The notes under the pieces were generated by a model that searched no databases, was not told where the DNA came from, and was given only the letters and a program-made list of their open reading frames with translations. Shown here in pieces: positions 4,880 to 20,177 of a DNA stretch of 38,453 bases (its first letter is position 1; each line of letters opens with the position of its first letter). The stretch is from Elainella sp. Prado103 (GTDB taxonomy: Bacteria > Cyanobacteriota > Cyanobacteriia > Elainellales > Elainellaceae). The translations under genes and the position numbers were made by a program. The stretch is from contig JALOOM010000039.1 in assembly GCA_025454395.1 (NCBI GenBank), forward strand, positions 1 to 38,453. Reading direction: 5' to 3'.

Positions 4880-7033
4880 TCAGGCTGACCCTGCGGTATC
4901 CAACTGGCCTGATTGCAGCCAGTCTGCCAAGGCTGCTGGAGCTTGGGCTTGTTTCAGATAGGCTTGAAGGGAGTCTCCCTCTAAGACTTCATCTTGTAGT
5001 AGAGTTTGGGCAATGGTTTCTAGCAACTCTTGATTCAGGCGGAGGGTTTCCTGGGCCATCTGATGCGCTGTATCAATAATTCGCTGTACTTCTCGATCGA
5101 TCAAAGCAGTTACCTCTGGGCTGATTGGACGGCGAGCACTATTTGTACTTAAAAACTGTTGCTGCATTCGCTCAAAGGCGACCGGGCCAAGCTTGCTATC
5201 CATTCCGTAAAGCGTCACCATCCGTTCTGCCAAATCGGTGGCTTTCTGAATGTCATCGCTCGCACCAGTTGAAACTTTACCAAATACCACTTCTTCGGCC
5301 GATCGCCCTCCCAACAGGGTGGCAATCCGACCGCGAATTTCATCTTCCGCCATCAAAAATCGATCCTCTTCTGGGAGTTGGAGGGTATAGCCCAAAGCCC
5401 CCACCCCACGAGGCACGATCGAGATTTTTTCAACGCGATTTGAACCGGGCATCAACGATCCAACGATGGCATGACCCACCTCATGGTAAGAGACGATCTT
5501 ACGCTCTAGCGGATTTAAAACTCGCGATTTGCGTTCTAATCCAGCGATGACGCGCTCGATCGCCTCATTCAAATCCGCCATTTTCATCACGGTCTGGTTT
5601 TTGCGGGCCGCCAGCAAAGCTGCTTCGTTGATCAGGTTGGCCAGATCGGCACCAGAAAATCCAGGGGTGCGGGTAGCAATGGCACTGAGATCGACATCGC
5701 CACCTAACTGAACCTTTTTCGCATGAACTCGCAGGATGGCTTCTCGTCCTAGCTTATCCGGTCGATCGACCGTGACTTGCCGATCAAAGCGACCGGGACG
5801 ACGCAGCGCCAGGTCGAGCACCTCTGGTCTGTTAGTAGCAGCAATAATAATCACGCCCGTGTTCCCCTCAAACCCGTCCATCTCGGTCAGCAATTGGTTG
5901 AGGGTTTGCTCCTGCTCATCGTTACTGCCCAAGGCACTGTTGCTACTGCGAGCTTTGCCTAAGGCATCTAACTCGTCAATAAATACGATGCAGGGGGCTT
6001 TTTGCTTCGCCTGCTGAAACAAATCACGGACGCGAGCGGCTCCTACCCCGACAAATAATTCAATAAACTCTGAGCCAGAAATACTGAAGAACGGCACTCC
6101 CGCTTCTCCGGCGATCGCTTTAGCAAGCAAGGTTTTGCCGGTACCGGGTGGCCCAACGAGGAGTACACCTTTAGGAATCACTGCTCCAATCTTGGTGTAT
6201 TTATCAGGCTGTTTCAGAAACTCAACAATTTCTTCAAGCTCTGCCTTGGCTTCATCTTCGCCGGCCACATCGTTAAAAGTGACACCTGTGTTGCCTTCGG
6301 CATAAATGCGAGCTTTACTTTTACCGACCGTCAGTGCTGCCGATCCTCCCTGGGCTTTCTGTAAAAACCAGGCCCAGATTCCCACGAAAATCAACGGTGG
6401 AATCACCCAGCCCAACAGAGTGCCCAGAAAACTGCCTTGATTGGGGGGAGCCGCGCCAAATTTGACCTGTTGCTGTTCTAGCAAACTCACCAGTTCACGG
6501 GTGTTATCGGCGATCGGAATGGTGGAAAAAATCTCTCGCTGATCTTGGCGATCCGCTTCTGGACTGGCTTCTGGACTGGCTTCTGGACTGGCTTCTGGAC
6601 TGGCAGGATTTATTTCTGCATTGGCAGCGGGGCTAGGTGCTGGACTCGGCGAAGGCGAAGCTTCTACAACCGGAGCAACTGGATCAGCCACAGGCGCAGG
6701 GGAAACAGCCTCTGGAGTCGTTGACGGATTGGGTGGAGTGATTGATTCAGTCTCGGATTTAGTTTCGGATTCAGGATTGGTCGCACCTTGGGTTGCCTCT
6801 GGTTTGAGGATATAGCGAATTTCCGCATCTCCCAATAGGACTTCATCGACGTTGCCCGATCGCACTTGTTGTAAAAAGTCACTGTAGGCAACACGGGTAG
6901 GTCTGGAAATGAACCTGGGAAGCACAACAAAATTGAGGAGAAATAGGGTAATTAACAGAGAAAACAGCCCACTACCAACGTTGCGGGGTGGTGAGGGTTT
7001 GTTATTCCCTTTAGGATTCGTCTCAATTGGCAT
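4880..7033 (-). CDS. ftsH: ATP-dependent zinc metalloprotease FtsH, complete
   Basis: This is a complete 717-residue membrane AAA+ protease. Order: N-terminal TM (about 22-40), periplasmic or lumenal domain with a long Pro/Ser/Ala/Glu-rich insert (about 85-165), second TM (about 205-225), Walker A GPPGTGKT (294-301), Walker B FIDELD (351-356), arginine-finger region RRPGRFDR, zinc motif HEVGH (517-521) and the Asp ligand in STGASDDIQ. The [15 protein letters not shown] segment suggests the FtsH4-like cyanobacterial subtype, by recall. Most family members are about 610-640 residues; the excess is the low-complexity insert, which carries four SPEA repeats. A GGGAG site precedes the ATG. It probably degrades misassembled membrane proteins, possibly in hetero-oligomers. 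Here the [12 protein letters not shown] segment missing from the first FtsH is present. Confidence 0.96.
6555..6603 (-). repeat. 12-bp tandem repeat coding SPEA x4
   Basis: Four near-perfect copies of a 12-bp unit (CTTCTGGACTGG on the plus strand) encode Ser-Pro-Glu-Ala repeats in the extracytoplasmic linker of FtsH. The unit length keeps the frame, so copy number could vary without harm. Confidence 0.9.
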
Positions 7034-8204: not shown

Positions 8205-8273
8205 AATTAGAGCCCGATCATTAGGTCAAGAAAACTCAGTCCACCAGCGTTTCAGAAACGATTCAGAAACAAT

Positions 8274-9098: not shown

Positions 9099-10202
9099 TT
9101 AACCCGCCCGTTTGGGAGCTTGTAAGGATCGGCTCACCACAATACCCAAAGTTAAAACAGTGATGGGAATGACGAACCAGAGCATGACATGACTGTAGAC
9201 CGGCAGGCTCGTGTGTTGAGTCGAGTCGAGGATCAAATAAATGGCATAGGCAATATAGTAGGCGGTGAAAATGAAGCCCTCCCAACGGGCGATCAAATTT
9301 CCGCTCACGAAAACGGGTAAGCAGGCGATCGCCACAGCAATCATCACCGGAATATCCAATCGCAGTGCCGCATCAGAGACCACTAAACCAGCAGGTGCTA
9401 CCGTCCCAGAGAGACCTAAGACGGCCAGAATATTAAAGATATTGCTGCCGACTACGTTGCCTACGGCGATATCCCGTTCCCCCTTGATGCTGGCCACCAC
9501 TGAAGTTGCCAATTCTGGTAAGGAAGTGCCTGCGGCCACGATCGTGAGTCCAATCACCAGATCACTGATCCCAAACGATCGGGCGATGACGATCGAACCA
9601 TCCACTAACCAACGAGACCCTAATACCAGGAGCGCCAAACCAATCCCGATGTAACCTATGTTAATTAACCAGCCGCGTAAGGAGCGATCAATCGATTCTC
9701 CTGGAGTGCTATATTCCTGCTCATATTCCAACTGCACGTCCGGGTTTTTCTCTTGCCGCCCTTGATAGATCAGAAAAATAGTGTAGGTAACCCCCAGCGT
9801 AAATAAAATAATGCCATCGACTCGGCCAATCCGGCCATCCAAGCCAAACACAAACATCAGTACTGAAACTCCGATCATAATCGGCACATCCAGCCGGATC
9901 AACTGCTGTGCGACCACCAGCGGAGTCACTAGGGCTGACACCCCTAAAATGAACAACACATTGAAAATATTGCTGCCGACCACATTTCCCACTGCAATAT
10001 CTGCTTGTCCCGATAAACTGGTAATCACGCTAACGGCCATTTCTGGGGAACTCGTCCCATAGGCCACGATCGTCAAACCAATGACCAGGGGAGAAATGCC
10101 AGCGATCGTCGCAATCTTTGATGCGCCTCGAACCAGTGCCTCAGCCCCAATCACCAGCAACACTAGCCCCAAAATGAGCAACACAACCACTGTAAAACTC
10201 AT
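9099..10202 (-). CDS. Na+/Ca2+ exchanger (CaCA family, YrbG-like)
   Basis: This is a 367-residue polytopic membrane protein with the duplicated alpha-repeats of the CaCA family. Alpha-1 contains GLTIVAYGTSSPE and GNVVGSNIFNVLFILG; alpha-2 contains GLTIVAAGTSLPE and GNVVGSNIFNILAVLG. Both Glu residues needed for cation binding are present. The two halves are joined by a cytoplasmic loop (GRQEKNPDVQLEYEQEYSTP) of modest length, and about ten TM helices can be seen. It probably exports Ca2+ (or another cation) against Na+ or H+ across the plasma membrane. Ion choice cannot be settled by sequence. Confidence 0.93.
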   Translation of the reverse strand: MSFTVVVLLILGLVLLVIGAEALVRGASKIATIAGISPLVIGLTIVAYGTSSPEMAVSVITSLSGQADIAVGNVVGSNIFNVLFILGVSALVTPLVVAQQLIRLDVPIMIGVSVLMFVFGLDGRIGRVDGIILFTLGVTYTIFLIYQGRQEKNPDVQLEYEQEYSTPGESIDRSLRGWLINIGYIGIGLALLVLGSRWLVDGSIVIARSFGISDLVIGLTIVAAGTSLPELATSVVASIKGERDIAVGNVVGSNIFNILAVLGLSGTVAPAGLVVSDAALRLDIPVMIAVAIACLPVFVSGNLIARWEGFIFTAYYIAYAIYLILDSTQHTSLPVYSHVMLWFVIPITVLTLGIVVSRSLQAPKRAG

Positions 10203-12384: not shown

Positions 12385-12936
12385 ATGGCTCTTTATCTGA
12401 CGGCAAGCCAACTGGCTCAGATCCAGGCTCATGCAGAACACACCTACCCCGAGGAATGTTGTGGCATTTTATTGGGGACGATCGAGCGATCGGTGAACTC
12501 CCAGGAGGAGGATCGCAAAACCCTGATGCAGGTGATCGAAACAGTGAATGCCTGGGACGCAACCACAGCGCAGCAGTATGCCGATCTGATCGAGCCTTCT
12601 CGTTACCCAACCTCTTCGACTGCCAGCTCTGCGGCTACTTCTTCTCCCTGCTCAGCCAAACGGGATCGCTACTGGATCGATCCCCAAGATTTACTCCAGG
12701 CTCAAAAGCAAGGGCGCGATCGAGGACTGCAAATCATCGGTTTCTACCACTCCCATCCCGACCACCCAGCCCTGCCTTCGGAAACCGATCGCCGGTTGGC
12801 CTGGGCAGAATATGCCTATCTGATTGGATCGGTGCAGCAAGGACGGGCAGTCGATTGGCAATCCTGGCGGCTCAATCAGGCAGAGCAGTTCGAGGCAGAA
12901 ACGGTCGTGGTTCTGGCGGCAGAAAGGGGCAAATAG
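12385..12936 (+). CDS. JAMM/MPN+ zinc metalloprotease (Mec+-like, M67)
   Basis: This 183-residue protein carries a full JAMM motif: Glu near residue 23-24 (YPEECCGILLG), His122 and His124 in FYHSHPDHPALPS, and Asp135 in SETD. In bacteria such proteins (for example mycobacterial Mec+) cleave amino acids or peptides from the C-terminal Gly-Gly of ThiS/MoaD/CysO-type sulfur carriers. A Ser/Thr/Ala-rich insert (residues about 73-92) precedes RYWIDPQDL and looks unstructured. It is coupled to proS upstream (3 nt) and followed 158 nt later by an E1-like MoeB-rhodanese gene, a pairing that suggests sulfur-carrier processing. No carrier gene is in the window. Confidence 0.9.
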   Translation: MALYLTASQLAQIQAHAEHTYPEECCGILLGTIERSVNSQEEDRKTLMQVIETVNAWDATTAQQYADLIEPSRYPTSSTASSAATSSPCSAKRDRYWIDPQDLLQAQKQGRDRGLQIIGFYHSHPDHPALPSETDRRLAWAEYAYLIGSVQQGRAVDWQSWRLNQAEQFEAETVVVLAAERGK

Positions 12937-13033
12937 CAGTAGAGCAGGAACGGGGAGGCAGAAATCTAAAATCTCCGATCAAAATGCCACCATTATGCGA
13001 GACACCTGCTCTAATAGAAAGGCAAGCCATTTT

Positions 13034-13066
13034 CCCCTCAAATACCCCTCAAACACCCCTCAAACA
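13034..13066. repeat. 11-bp tandem repeat x3
   Basis: Three contiguous copies of CCCCTCAAAYA lie in the leader of the MoeB-like gene, about 30 nt before its start. Confidence 0.85.
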
Positions 13067-13094
13067 AATTCAACCCTTGTTTTAGTCATTAACC

Positions 13095-14400: not shown

Positions 14401-17400
14401 TCAATTGCTAGTTCTGGTCACTAACGCTGGTAACGCCAATGGCCGATCGAATTGTTGCTCCAGATCGGCGGTCAATGTATCCAGATATTGCAACAAGTAT
14501 TCTAGAGCATGACGATTAGCGACGTAGATCCGATCGGCCGTTTTGGTGAAAATGGGGGTCAGCCGGATGGCAGCATAATCTGGATTCTCGGCCGACTCAG
14601 CCAGCAACAGCGGTAGGTCTGCGGTGGCTGGAATGCAACCGATCGGCAGGTGATTCTCGAGCAGTGATAAAATTCGGAGGCGGCAGGCAGCAGTATCAAT
14701 CCCCTGAGCCTCCAGTAACTGCATGATTTCCGCCACAGTAGCAGATTGGGCTGGAAAGCAGCGCAGCAATGATCGCAGCAGAAAATAATCATTAAACTGA
14801 TGACGAGCCCGATCGATCACTTGTGGATGAAGCGGCAGGGTAGCCAGCCCATAGGCAACACGACTACAGCTAGGAATGGTTTGTCCACCGCTGATGGATT
14901 GGGGATAGGTGTCTTGAATGATCGTGGCATTCGGCAACTTTTGGCGTAACCAGCGAGCGATCGCACTCAAAGCTGCCGTACCGCCTGTGCAAATGACTTG
15001 ATTAACAGCAGAGGCAGTGGTGTTGGTTTGAGCCAACAAGGTATTCAATTCGCGATTGAGGCGCTGCACATAGGGCAACAAAACTCGGCTGGTCAAATCC
15101 TGCCGATCGATCGTTAGGGTTTGCAAACCGTAGCGGAAGCTGAAGTGAGGCTGGTGTTGTAGCGTAATTTTCAGTAATTGGGCTAAGTGGAGCAACTGAG
15201 TGCCAGCGGGCGTATAGTCGAGTCGTTGTTGCAAATGATAGCGATCGATCGGTGCCAACTCGGCTGCGGCTGGCATCCAAGGCTCAATCTGAAGTTGGTT
15301 CAGGTCTAGCGGTGGAATTTCCGTATCTGGGGTGCGAGTGACGGGTTGTGGCTCTGGCAATTCAGCCTCATCAGGCAGATGACTTAAAACAGGGTATAGA
15401 AGCTGACAGATAATGTCTTGATCAATCCCTTGACCCGCGAAAGGCACACTCCGAACATAAAAATCAGTTGGGTTCAGTTGGGCCAGATCAGCAGGTAAGT
15501 GAACCAACACCAACTCGGTCAAGCAAGCGCCAGCAGTCAAAACCAGCGTTGTACCCTGCCAATCTGCATTGTGCAAATGTCCTGCCTGCCCTTGGGCTTG
15601 GGCTAATTTCACCGATCGCCCATCCTCGCTGGGTAAGGCCGAAAGTAAGGTGGCAACAGCATCCTCAACCAGCAACACCTGATCGGCTTGCTGCACCAAT
15701 CCGGCTTCCAGCCCAGCTTCCTGAATATTGACCCGATAGGTATCCGTCCAACTGCTGGGATGACCCACCACAATTCCCGCTAAATCCCGCAGGATTGCCT
15801 GGAATTCTGCGGGTTCTAGCCCTAAAGCCCCACAACTTACGGTCGGCATAAAGGATAGGCGATCAGGATTGAGGGTTGCAAACAGTTGCTGAAGTGCTTC
15901 TTGCAAGGTTCTCAATGGTACGGCTGGCTGGCCGATTTGTGCTAGGACAGGTTCCCACCGAGAGGTTTGCGGTGAATAGTGGGGTAACGCAATGCGTAGA
16001 TAGGGTTTCCAATGCTTAAGGCAAACTGGGGTAGTCTCGGAACTGGGCTCAAAGCGAATGGTGGGCAGGGGAGAAGCGGCAGGCTCGCTGGTGGCTAAGG
16101 TCACCGTGGTTGTGAGCCGGAATTGCTTGGGAGCGGCAAATTCTGATGCAGTGCTGGTTTGCCAATAAATGGGGTACAGCAAACACTGAGCAGCGTTGAG
16201 CAACACAGCAGAAATTCCTGTGGTGCCAAAGTCAATCCCGAGGAACCATTGATCGGGCGATTTTAATAAGGAATGTTCGGGGGTTGGAGGGGTTGCTAAA
16301 AGAGCATCCAGTTGATCGACGATCGCTGCATCTAATTCAGTCGCTGTATCGATTCCTGCCAACTCTGTGGGCACCTCAGGTATATCAACTGGTATATCGA
16401 GCAGTTGTGAGGTTGTGGAAAAAGCGGGTGTCTCCGATCGATCTCCTGATACCGAGGATTCAGCGTCTATTTCTCCTTCTACATCTACTTCTCCCCCTCC
16501 TTCTACATCTACTTCTCCTTCTACATCTATTCCTAAATCACCTGTGAAATCTATTGCAGATTCTATTTCCTCCGAAGATATATATGCTGCAAATAAGGGA
16601 AACCTATTTTCAAGACTCTCAAAATCGTTCTCAGATTCAAACTCAATTGCATTCCCTTCAGGTAGATTCAAGTTGGATCGGGTCAGCTCAGGTGAATCTT
16701 CCTCCAAGCTAGGTGCAGATCGATCGGTTTCAGAGGAAGCGCTTTCAGGCAATTCAAGACCAGTTGGATCAATTTCAAATGGCTCAACTGGATCAATTTC
16801 AAATGGCTCAACTTCAGTAGCGTAATCTCCTGAGTTCAGTTGAGCGAATTCAGCAATCTGCATTGCTAACGCATCGGGTGCGACTGGATCTGTTTCGATC
16901 GAATCGATTGTGCTAGGATTTGCAATTACATCTCTCGTATCACCTTCATGAGCATCAAAATCATTCGGATTAGTATTTTCCGAATGGAGTGAAGCGAATG
17001 GTTCAGAGGATGTTGCAGATATGTCTTCGATCGGCTGATTGAAGAAATCAAATTGATCAAATAAAACTTCATCGGCAATTGCAAAAGAGCGCGATCCCGC
17101 TTCAGGTGACAAGCTGGCAGAAGCACTGGAGGCAATTTCAGCTTGGTTAAGCGCGATCGAGTCATTTTCTGTCAAGCACTCTAGCGTATTAGTTGCATCA
17201 GACAGATTCTCCGCTCCTGCCGGATTATCCAATGCTAGAGATAAATCTTCTAAAAAGGCATCAAGTGTATTAGCCCAATCCTCATCAGGCTCGATCGGGG
17301 TGATTGTTTCCCCTGGCTCGATCGGGCTGATGATTTCATGGCTAGCTTCGTGACTGGCTTCATGCCCAATTTCACTCCCAAAGCTGGCCGAAAACGCAGA

Positions 17401-17541
17401 CAGGGAATCCTCAGCCTCTATCTCTGATACTGAGTTTGATACTGAGTCTGATACTGAGTCTGTCGCGAGCAGCGTCAACAGAGGTTCCTCAAAGGTCAAA
17501 GTCGGAGGAGTTTGAGGGGTTTCCAACCACAAATCCTGCAT
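14401..17541 (-). CDS. Hsp70/actin-fold protein with long acidic disordered N-terminus
   Basis: This 1046-residue ORF has about 425 residues of low-complexity Asp/Glu/Ser-rich sequence with short repeats (EASHEASHE, EPFEIDP twice, DVEGEVDVEGG-like), then an Hsp70/actin-like module. Phosphate-1 is GIDFGTTGISAVLLN (435-449); a VVGHPSSW strand and VEDAVATLLSAL connect-like helix follow; the adenosine motif is VICTGGTAALSAIARWL. The phosphate-2 loop reads LVLTAGACLTELVL in place of DLGGGT, so the usual Asp is missing and hydrolysis may be weak or absent. ATG 17541 has no Shine-Dalgarno. The frame is open upstream to 17628, into the A11 tract ending the preceding gene, so this may be the -1 frameshift extension of that gene. 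The role is unknown; a scaffold or chaperone is inference. Confidence 0.85.
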   Translation of the reverse strand: MQDLWLETPQTPPTLTFEEPLLTLLATDSVSDSVSNSVSEIEAEDSLSAFSASFGSEIGHEASHEASHEIISPIEPGETITPIEPDEDWANTLDAFLEDLSLALDNPAGAENLSDATNTLECLTENDSIALNQAEIASSASASLSPEAGSRSFAIADEVLFDQFDFFNQPIEDISATSSEPFASLHSENTNPNDFDAHEGDTRDVIANPSTIDSIETDPVAPDALAMQIAEFAQLNSGDYATEVEPFEIDPVEPFEIDPTGLELPESASSETDRSAPSLEEDSPELTRSNLNLPEGNAIEFESENDFESLENRFPLFAAYISSEEIESAIDFTGDLGIDVEGEVDVEGGGEVDVEGEIDAESSVSGDRSETPAFSTTSQLLDIPVDIPEVPTELAGIDTATELDAAIVDQLDALLATPPTPEHSLLKSPDQWFLGIDFGTTGISAVLLNAAQCLLYPIYWQTSTASEFAAPKQFRLTTTVTLATSEPAASPLPTIRFEPSSETTPVCLKHWKPYLRIALPHYSPQTSRWEPVLAQIGQPAVPLRTLQEALQQLFATLNPDRLSFMPTVSCGALGLEPAEFQAILRDLAGIVVGHPSSWTDTYRVNIQEAGLEAGLVQQADQVLLVEDAVATLLSALPSEDGRSVKLAQAQGQAGHLHNADWQGTTLVLTAGACLTELVLVHLPADLAQLNPTDFYVRSVPFAGQGIDQDIICQLLYPVLSHLPDEAELPEPQPVTRTPDTEIPPLDLNQLQIEPWMPAAAELAPIDRYHLQQRLDYTPAGTQLLHLAQLLKITLQHQPHFSFRYGLQTLTIDRQDLTSRVLLPYVQRLNRELNTLLAQTNTTASAVNQVICTGGTAALSAIARWLRQKLPNATIIQDTYPQSISGGQTIPSCSRVAYGLATLPLHPQVIDRARHQFNDYFLLRSLLRCFPAQSATVAEIMQLLEAQGIDTAACRLRILSLLENHLPIGCIPATADLPLLLAESAENPDYAAIRLTPIFTKTADRIYVANRHALEYLLQYLDTLTADLEQQFDRPLALPALVTRTSN

Positions 17542-17563
17542 CCAATCCGAAAGGGTGGCTGTG

Positions 17564-17636
17564 TCTGAGGTTTCTCCATGCGGAGCAGAATTGGCGATCC
17601 CCTCAGAATCTATTTTTTTTTTTCGGAATCAGCCTC
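17564..17636 (-). promoter_or_regulatory. candidate -1 recoding (frameshift or slippage) signal
   Basis: Reading the minus strand, SD-like GAGG (17636-17633) lies 9 nt before an 11-base A-run (17623-17613). TAG follows, and 5 nt after the run TCTGAGG (17607-17601) can pair with CCTCAGA (17570-17564), enclosing an inner CTCC-GCAT-GGAG hairpin (17585-17574). The incoming frame is GAA AAA AAA AAA TAG; the -1 frame continues ATA GAT TCT GAG with no stop into the Hsp70-like ORF. The E. coli dnaX signal has the same three parts at similar spacing. An A-run this long could also cause RNA-polymerase slippage, as in Thermus dnaX. Confidence 0.65.
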
Positions 17637-20177
17637 ATCTGCATCAAATAACTGTGACCAGTCTGCTAATTTCGCGGTGCCATCGGTTGGGCTGATCCCT
17701 GGCTGGCGAGTCAACAGATCACTCAGATTGGTTTCTACCGTAGGTAGGGCAGGTGGAACAGGAGGCTGACCGGGCTTAGCCGTCGTATCTGGCAATTCAG
17801 CAAATAATCCCTCCAATTCCTCGATCGTCACTTCTGTAGTTGCAGTGGGTGACGTGGGCATAGGTTGTGGTGGGATCGGGGCAGATGGAACGGAAGCGAA
17901 GGGAGGCTGATCTTGAGCCTGATCTTGAGCCTGATCTTGAGGAGGAGATGGCTCAGAAGCAAAATCAGCCGTAAACCGATCAAGCGATTCGATCGCAGAC
18001 AGTTCAAATGAGCTTGAAGCCAGACTAGGAGAGGACGTGAATCCTAAATCAAGCGCCTCACTTGCAGCTTCTTCTACGGGTAGAGGGGTTTGATCCAAAT
18101 TGACAGCATCTAGGGTGGCATTACCCAGGCTGGATCCATCTGTCCAGTCCGGAGGGAGCAGATCGGTCAAGTTTGGCATCCTATCTAAAGGCTCAGCCGC
18201 AGGGAAATCCGGTAGTGGTTGGGCAATTTCAGATGCATCAGACCTGCCGAAATCGGCAAATAATCCCTCGCTCTCCTCCCTAGTTGCGGTTGAATTACGA
18301 TTGGAGTCGCTGCTTAGATTTGGGTCACTGCTTAGATTTGGGTCACTGCTCAGAAAGGTATCAAACGATCGGCTCACAGACTGAGTTGCAATCTCTGATG
18401 CTGGTGCTGGAGCTTGGCTGGCTGGATCCTCTAAACCACCAAACCAAGTCTGCTCTAAAGTGAGGGCATCTAAACGGCTCCAGTCTTCGTTGGCTGAGAT
18501 CGAATTTGATTCGGGCAGGTTAGCTTCCGGTTCAGACAACCCTTGGTAAAAGGCATCTGTATAGAGGCTGTCTAGTGAGGCAATCAGATCCGGTGCATCT
18601 GCTCCCTCTATGGCTTGATTCCCAGATGCAGAAATGGTTGGATCGGGCTCCAACGGACTATTCTGCATTTCAGCACTCAATTGGTTGATTAAATCCAAGG
18701 CCGAGTCGAAATCATCGTTTTCTGAGTGATCGTTTTCTGAGTGATCGTTCACTGAGGCATGATCTGCTGAGGCATGGCTTGCTGACGGATGTTTAGCCTG
18801 ATCTGCCAGTAAATCCACTTGAATCATGCGTCCGCTTGAGGTGGGGGCAATCGATCGAGCGGAAGGCTCAGGAGCGGTGGAAATGTTAGAGGCGTTAGGA
18901 AACAAATCTCCTGAAAAGAGATCACTGCTGCTTGACTCACCCGTCAAATCTAGCTGGCTCAACTCTCGGCTCAAATCTTCCAAGGTGCCCGTTAGATTCA
19001 ATTCACTCTCAGGAGAATCACCAGGTTGTCGCTCTGATGGAATTCTGTCTGCTGCTGCCCCGGCATCTGCCCCAAGATGGGTCGCCAGATCGGCAATGTC
19101 GAGCACCTCTTCGGAAAGATTGAAGGGCACGGCAGGCATAAAACTAGATGATTCAGGGGTTGCACTAGGAGGCTGGCTCAGAAAATCTGCAACCGTAAAT
19201 GAAGGGGTATCGGCTGATGTTGCATCCAGTAAGGGAGCATCCGATCGATCCGGCTGTTCAGAAGCTTGCCTAGAAGGCTGTTCAGAAACCTGTCCAGAAG
19301 CTTGCCCAGAAGCCTGTTCAGCGGTTTGCGAAGGAGACGGTTGAAGCGAAGATTGTTGTAACAGGGTGGAGGCTTCTCGCCCAACTTGCTGGGCAAATCG
19401 ATTGACGAGATAGGCAAAAACCGCTTCCCCTTGTTGACCTAAGCTATGCATCCGGTTCAATCCCTGTTCCAGCGAATCCTGGTAAGACTGCACATTCCGG
19501 CTGAGGGATTCAAAAATCATTTGCAGAGTAGTGTCGAGCTTCAGCATCAACTGATCCGACTGAGACTGCATTTTCTGGAGCTGGGCCAATCGTTCGGCTG
19601 GACTCAGTGCCATCAAACCTTGGGGATCGGTACGATCGATCGCTGGCAGCGCCGGAGTGGTTTGGGCAGCAATCATCTGGGTCATTTGAGCGGAGAGATT
19701 TGCCTGCATCTGAGCCATGGCAGATTGCAGAAATTCCATCAACATTTGCTGATTTTGCCCTGACATCCCCCCATACTGCTGTTTTTGAGACTCTAATCGT
19801 CGCAGATCTTGGCTAATCATTTCACGCTGAAGCTGGAGCGCATCCACCTCGGCCCGCAAAGGTTGCAGCATGTTAACTCGCCAGTAGTTCATTTCCTGCA
19901 ACACCGCTTGTAACACCTGTTGAGCCGATTCTGCAGATGGATGCTCAGCCGATGAAGCAACTGGAGGGCTTGACGCTGGAGAACTTAGCGAGGGAAACGA
20001 TCGATCGTCTGCGAGTTGCTGTTGAAGCGAAAGCAAATATTGACGAGTTTGCTCCAGCATTTGCCGTTGTTGGGCTGCATCGTTAGACATCACCCACGGC
20101 AGGCGAGGAGAAGTTTTGCTTAAAACCTCATCAATTCCATTCAGGAGTGCTTGAATTTGCGCTTGTTGAGAAGTCAC
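17610..20177 (-). CDS. coiled-coil protein with long acidic disordered tail
   Basis: This 855-residue protein begins with a conserved-looking helical segment (IDEVLSKTSPRLPWVMSNDAAQQRQM, residues 15-40 approximately), then a predicted coiled coil (about 85-275, rich in Gln, Leu and Met), then more than 500 residues of Ser/Asp/Glu/Ala/Pro-rich sequence with short repeats (GQASGQVSEQ, SDPNLS, QDQAQDQ). The C-terminus carries short hydrophobic-acidic motifs (IEELEGLFAELP, LADWSQLFDAD) and ends SEKKK at the A11 tract. The GTG start is supported by AAGGA 7 nt upstream. No family is recognised. The downstream Hsp70-like ORF continues in the -1 frame and has the same composition, so the two may form one protein or a partner pair. 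Confidence 0.85.
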   Translation of the reverse strand: MTSQQAQIQALLNGIDEVLSKTSPRLPWVMSNDAAQQRQMLEQTRQYLLSLQQQLADDRSFPSLSSPASSPPVASSAEHPSAESAQQVLQAVLQEMNYWRVNMLQPLRAEVDALQLQREMISQDLRRLESQKQQYGGMSGQNQQMLMEFLQSAMAQMQANLSAQMTQMIAAQTTPALPAIDRTDPQGLMALSPAERLAQLQKMQSQSDQLMLKLDTTLQMIFESLSRNVQSYQDSLEQGLNRMHSLGQQGEAVFAYLVNRFAQQVGREASTLLQQSSLQPSPSQTAEQASGQASGQVSEQPSRQASEQPDRSDAPLLDATSADTPSFTVADFLSQPPSATPESSSFMPAVPFNLSEEVLDIADLATHLGADAGAAADRIPSERQPGDSPESELNLTGTLEDLSRELSQLDLTGESSSSDLFSGDLFPNASNISTAPEPSARSIAPTSSGRMIQVDLLADQAKHPSASHASADHASVNDHSENDHSENDDFDSALDLINQLSAEMQNSPLEPDPTISASGNQAIEGADAPDLIASLDSLYTDAFYQGLSEPEANLPESNSISANEDWSRLDALTLEQTWFGGLEDPASQAPAPASEIATQSVSRSFDTFLSSDPNLSSDPNLSSDSNRNSTATREESEGLFADFGRSDASEIAQPLPDFPAAEPLDRMPNLTDLLPPDWTDGSSLGNATLDAVNLDQTPLPVEEAASEALDLGFTSSPSLASSSFELSAIESLDRFTADFASEPSPPQDQAQDQAQDQPPFASVPSAPIPPQPMPTSPTATTEVTIEELEGLFAELPDTTAKPGQPPVPPALPTVETNLSDLLTRQPGISPTDGTAKLADWSQLFDADEADSEKKK

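Follow-up and report, generated by a model that had tools for sequence, protein, structure and literature searches.

In the cyanobacterium Elainella sp. Prado103, two long open reading frames (ORFs) meet at a run of 11 A residues (A11) on the minus strand of contig JALOOM010000039.1 (assembly GCA_025454395.1), all 38,453 nucleotides (nt) of which were analysed and are referred to here as the window. The upstream frame, ORF1, encodes a predicted coiled-coil protein and stops directly after the run; the downstream frame, ORF2, encodes an Hsp70-like ATPase. The locus raises the question of whether these are two genes or one and, if one, what joins the two frames. A preliminary description of the window had proposed a recoding signal like that of Escherichia coli dnaX. 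Comparison with relatives supports recoding well, but not a dnaX-like ribosomal signal: we consider it probable, from sequence comparison, that one cyanobacterial gene gives rise to two proteins by slippage on a run of 9 to 11 A's (A9-A11), most likely by RNA polymerase.

The junction between the two frames

We refer to the ATPase frame as frame L and to the other two frames as L+1 and L-1. Run lengths are given throughout as assembled. The features at the junction are as follows.

17610..20177, minus strand: ORF1, the upstream frame; 855 amino acids (aa) from a GTG start, with an N-terminal coiled coil and then a long acidic low-complexity stretch, ending at the A-run.
17613..17623, minus strand: A11, putative slippage run, assigned from sequence and conservation.
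17610..17612, minus strand: TAG immediately 3' of the run in the ORF1 frame (L+1), the end of the short product.
17603..17605, minus strand: TGA closing the third frame (L-1) 10 nt past the run, read from the sequence.
14401..17612, minus strand: downstream frame L, a linker and the Hsp70-like ATPase, which would be entered after a slip of +1 A or -2 A.
17539..17541, minus strand: first ATG of ORF2, inside LSDWMQDL; probably not a start.
17564..17607, minus strand: stem arms TCTGAGG/CCTCAGA, found in the window; conservation of this element is not supported.

What had been read from this junction was borne out in every detail examined, with the gene pair on the minus strand. The 3' end of ORF1 is GAT TCC GAA AAA AAA AAA TAG, and the -1 frame remains open across the run as far as position 14401, a span of 1,075 codons from stop to stop. 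A transcript with one additional A would encode the junction ...EKKKIDSEG... within a predicted fused product of 1,925 residues (855 + 1,070), the length anticipated alongside the 855-residue form. The candidate stimulatory elements are also where they had been placed: a GAGG at 17633-17636 (minus strand), 9 nt upstream of the run, and the arms TCTGAGG (17607-17601) and CCTCAGA (17570-17564), the first of which begins 5 nt downstream of it. No 4-nt Shine-Dalgarno (SD) match precedes the first ATG of ORF2 (17541), again in agreement with the preliminary description.

Conservation and rarity of the A-run

Among 60 genomes, 47 have relatives of ORF2, a count that includes the window's own; among 290 genomes drawn from the window's class, 162 have them. 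Relatives also occur in records of uncultured cyanobacterium PMM_0073, Pegethrix bostrychoides and filamentous cyanobacterium CCP2. In a draw of 146 genomes from the phylum, the class make-up of which was not listed, 38 of 38 matches belonged to the window's class. We compared 119 loci. One is the window, and 40 come from the other 46 matching genomes in the set of 60 (G031 was left out, and five further genomes were placed in the second batch); the remaining 78 form a second batch chosen by hand, one to a few per genus and mostly from the 162 matching genomes. Locus counts describe this chosen sample and are not frequencies. Six loci read later stand outside the totals, two of them with an A10 run (L153 and L154); L142 and L143 were not used.

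The junction carries A9-A11 in 72 of the 119 loci, or 71 of the 118 other than the window, and frames differ among them. These loci come from 16 of the 23 sampled families and comprise 53 A10, 12 A9 (counting L049) and 7 A11 runs. The run is present at the junction more often than expected by chance. The loci, 1.006 Mb in all, contain no further sense-strand run of nine or more A's and a single run of nine or more T's. In the window genome (5.84 Mb in 157 contigs) the junction is the sole run of 10 or more A's on either strand, where about 11 A10 sites would be expected in an equal-base random sequence (by simple arithmetic, not from shuffled genomes), and runs of nine or more A's occur at five places. 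Ten-base A windows, counted on both strands, number at most seven in 53 of the 60 genomes, with a maximum of 44 (G036). In 32 of the 60 the junction run reaches at least 10 A's, and 13 of these genomes have no other run that long on either strand. Over the 30 bases on each side of the run, conservation amounts to no more than about 0.4 bit per position, except for the two bases bounding the run. Because the flanks carry so little information, it is the bare run that is conserved. A recoding site appears to be under selection across 16 cyanobacterial families.

The remaining four A9 runs of the window genome (G000) lie at C9:8071, C26:49299, C76:33933 and C84:35986. In many loci, the 40 residues leading up to the run contain recurrent short motifs of the kind TLEDVF, SLEQIGDLF, TLEQAFASLMG or TIDDAF. 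In one locus (L135, genome G280), the A10 run is kept but the ATPase frame contains three stops past oriented position 6524, indicating a broken copy.

Among the 47 loci that lack the run, a single frame extends over as much as the contigs cover in 41, some of which (L084, L131, L137 and L151) are cut by contig ends. Two genes without a run, the arrangement that the preliminary description had named as telling against recoding, are seen in a few lineages only: L073 and L094 have AAG codons and a second start coupled by ATGA, and in L125 and L138 the frames are separate. L136 and L139 were assigned to neither arrangement. In nine of 10 run-less loci (L057, L091, L083, L085, L121, L079, L103, L074, L065 and L139, the last being the exception), no KK pair occurs in the stretch of up to 450 aa before the ATPase; the lysines were therefore either lost together with the run or never present.

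Template states and the stop after the run

We next classified 71 run loci by how the template itself joins the two frames; L049 (A9) is counted among the 72 but has no template state, its ORF1 being broken. The template is split at -1 in 39 loci, split at +1 in 11 and fused in 21, so the direction of the shift is not constant at -1 among orthologues. All three states occur in single-contig assemblies (-1 in G059, +1 in G011 and fused in G053) and even within one family, f34 (L111 at +1, L112 at -1 and L153 fused). In the congeners L039 and L040 the run is A10 and its codon phase is identical; their states differ through the spacer that follows the run. Codon phases of the run are distributed 48, 15 and 8 over the 71 loci. 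In a quickly built ATPase tree of 118 rows, from which the broken L135 was left out, the states of 68 run loci require at least 14 changes (L104 and L147 were left out of this count), and presence of the run requires at least 10.

In two genomes of one genus, G029 and G034, the ATPase frame changes at the same place (L061, about 9312-9350; L072, about 8216-8250; oriented positions). This shared change lies near a GCGATCGC site that has no long homopolymer. The congener G020 gives an unbroken match, and the change is either a common assembly error or a real break.

The template states vary, but one frame tends to close soon after the run. An L+1 stop lies within 14 nt past the run in 61 of 70 run loci (L135 was also omitted from this test), compared to 20% at control positions in the same genes. 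Outside family f32 the proportion is 60 of 63. In -1 loci this stop is that of ORF1 (37 of 39). It is also present where it does not fall in the template frame, namely in 11 of 11 +1 loci and 11 of 12 fused loci outside f32 (together 22/23, the miss being L104; L147, the contig of which begins at the run, was left out). A short product would end 0 to 3 residues past the run in 60 of 70 loci. For the L-1 frame there is no clear excess of such stops (17 of 70 versus 19% at control positions).

A proposed slippage model for the gene

We infer that slippage occurs at this run, that it is transcriptional, and that both resulting proteins are made and needed. Under this model, transcripts whose run length brings the near stop into frame would yield a short protein consisting of the coiled coil and acidic tail with a lysine end, and transcripts off by one or two A's would yield a long protein that continues into the Hsp70-like ATPase. 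In species with a fused template, already in frame, an unchanged run would give the long protein. In the window species, the A11 template would read as the short form, and a gain of one A or a loss of two would produce the 1,925-aa form. The ratio of arm-only to arm-plus-ATPase subunits would then matter, as that of gamma to tau does in dnaX.

The reason for favouring transcriptional slippage is that shift direction differs between orthologues. A passage in Antonov 2013 (PMC3711429) presents such mixed direction as a mark of transcriptional realignment. The preliminary description had named polymerase slippage as one option, and it is this option that the mixed directions favour. A further suggestion, which we make only tentatively, is that the DNA leaves the frame unfixed: slippage on A9-A11 would give all frames, so that the run and the near stop are selected and the template state drifts. 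If so, in much of a bacterial class the reading frame of this gene and the proportion of its two subunits would be determined by RNA polymerase rather than by the genome.

Alternative explanations

The E. coli dnaX type of signal, with its three parts and -1 direction, is not supported in the 69 to 70 run loci considered. It predicts a conserved direction, SD element and stem, and none of these holds. SD-like 4-mers occur upstream of the run in 12 of 69 loci, versus 10% at control positions, and the 60 nt past the run do not fold more stably than sequence nearby (mean z, -0.18; standard error, 0.16). The three-part layout seen in the window is thus not shared by its relatives. A broader alternative, and the main one, is that the ribosome makes the shift, either by a classical -1 slip or by sliding on AAA codons in either direction. 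An in-frame A_AAA_AAN is found in 27 of 28 rows examined (the exception, L035, was later classed as fused), the window has both GAGG and the stem, and SD-like 4-mers are slightly above the control. Yet a classical -1 slip cannot serve the 11 +1 loci, its stimulators are not conserved, and it needs seven A's in phase, whereas at least nine are kept in all codon phases. These points leave direction-free sliding untouched. As described in part of Koutmou 2015 (PMC4363877), ribosomes of E. coli translating iterated AAA slide into several frames and terminate at stops that are out of frame. We regard a ribosomal shift as rather unlikely overall. Translation of ORF2 as an ordinary second gene, from its own start by coupling, is exactly the arrangement of the run-less L073 and L094. 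Among 51 split run loci, though, six contain no ATG, GTG or TTG in the interval from the run to the first conserved ATPase residue, 16 have no ATG or GTG, and 41 have no start with a 4-nt SD. This scarcity disfavours an independent start, if not in every locus. The first ATG in the window lies inside LSDWMQDL, a pattern resembling the LADLIQDL/LAELIQDL found 20 to 35 residues past the runs of four congeners, and is probably not a start for this reason. Nor would two separate genes account for retention of the run, particularly in the 21 fused loci, and we consider this explanation very improbable.

Phase variation, with DNA replication altering the length of the run so that the long protein is on in some cells and off in others, would fit the mutability of homopolymers and the differing states of relatives, even within a genus (L035 versus the window). 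It fits less well with the identical run length found within 11 of 14 genera having at least two run loci (a tally), and with the L039/L040 pair, in which the difference sits in the spacer; it is improbable. Sequencing or assembly error must also be weighed, since homopolymers are error-prone and many of the source genomes are drafts; the gene could then be truly fused everywhere, or truly -1 everywhere. The same junction would have to be miscalled in each of 50 split loci, and congeners agree, single-contig genomes included. A gene fused everywhere leaves the near stop unexplained; a gene at -1 everywhere explains it, and a conserved recoding site would still remain. We judge error of either kind to be very improbable.

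Several observations weigh against slippage by RNA polymerase as the general explanation. The run is missing in 45 of the 78 second-batch loci. Ribosomal sliding on poly(A), being free in direction, would leave nearly the same pattern. An ATG or GTG precedes the ATPase in 35 of the 51 split run loci, so a separate start is possible there. In family f32 the run is kept, but the near stop is found in only one of seven loci, which is the chance level there (26%); these loci keep A10 in a fused gene, and several substitutions have removed the run from their sister loci L100 and L127. In f32, the site is possibly idle. Descent from a -1 ancestor could also account for the near stop, and if the truth were always -1 with miscounted runs, the stop would be expected in the apparent fused and +1 loci as well; its presence and the mixed direction are therefore not independent lines of evidence.

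The predicted proteins

The two products would share their N-terminal part, and only the long one would contain the ATPase.

19278..20177, minus strand: conserved N-terminal domain common to both products; predicted long helices, from an alignment of 33 sequences and an AlphaFold2 model (predicted local distance difference test [pLDDT], 73; predicted template modelling score [pTM], 0.31).
14404..16248, minus strand: Hsp70-type nucleotide-binding domain and C-terminal helical part, from alignment, AlphaFold2, Foldseek and VIA-align.

The N-terminal ~280 aa of ORF1 are matched over nearly their full length in 86 of the 119 loci, the window included; the helices of this shared part are modelled at modest confidence. 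By its structural model (AlphaFold2 pLDDT, 86), the ATPase has the Hsp70 nucleotide-binding fold. Foldseek matched the model to the nucleotide-binding domain of DnaK (E value, 5.5e-13), and the best VIA-align match was 4rtf (Z, 21.7; root mean square deviation, 3.5; 329 aligned residues). Sequence identity in the structural matches shown is 10 to 18%, and the coiled-coil arm at the N terminus is a further difference from Hsp70/DnaK. The Pfam Hsp70 profile gave no match to the window protein up to an E value of 0.1, and NCBIfam chaperone matches were weak and below cut-off. In ORF1 of one relative, NCBIfam returned XopZ (E value, 0.0022), far under the cut-off and likely a chance match to the coiled coil. 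By analogy with dnaX, in which tau and gamma share an N terminus, the two products may form a coiled-coil scaffold bearing the ATPase on only a fraction of its subunits. This is a large uncharacterised coiled-coil/Hsp70-like protein, and its two predicted forms are worth study.

Genes for dehydroquinate synthase and an AI-2E transporter lie upstream, and genes for a ThiF/rhodanese protein and a JAB protein downstream; these neighbours give no lead to function at the window locus. The JAB-domain ORF (12385-12936, plus strand), which adjoins the ThiF/rhodanese gene, overlaps a 209-aa ORF in another frame (12456-13085).

Comparison with known systems

The mechanism proposed is of a known kind; for this gene family and site we found no earlier report in the literature, although Sharma et al. 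2011 or the cluster tables of Antonov 2013 may contain a listing. The gene shares an A-rich slip site with E. coli dnaX, and the window also has an SD-like element and a stem; unlike in dnaX, the stimulators and the direction are not conserved in this family. A closer parallel is Thermus thermophilus dnaX, for which the relevant portions of Atkins 2016 (PMC5009743) and Baranov 2005 (PMC1088944) describe an A9 run in a cellular gene. Slippage there is accompanied by near stops in both other frames (in a passage of PMC5009743), and the long and short products, tau and gamma, share an N terminus, as predicted here. Thermus dnaX belongs to another family and is one ORF, whereas here the template may be fused, -1 or +1 and slippage is proposed from sequence. 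Two-ORF dnaX genes, as covered in part of Antonov 2013, likewise have a -1 split template with poly(A) at the junction and need recoding for the long form; nine of 17 have 10 A's. They are a different gene, and the Chlorobi examples named there have nine, eight and seven A's.

The mixture of directions has a precedent in IS630-family transposases assigned to transcriptional realignment, with 495 and 185 members at -1 and +1, respectively, in the section of Antonov 2013 concerned with them. These are mobile elements, whereas the gene described here mostly gives one match per genome. Within the cyanobacteria, a passage of Baranov 2005 reports runs of 8 to 10 A's in insertion sequence (IS) elements of Nostoc, the expression of which was ascribed to slippage. 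The cellular users of slippage named in the portions of PMC5009743 and PMC1088944 that treat the subject are dnaX, Shigella secretion genes, Staphylococcus aureus mapW and endosymbiont genes, in addition to IS elements. Annotation may split genes of the present kind into two or label them frameshifted, which is a warning, and the dozens of natural variants in all template frames make transcriptional versus ribosomal recoding testable. If the slippage reading is true, the occurrence of such a site in a nonmobile gene across 16 cyanobacterial families would be unusually wide beside these known examples.

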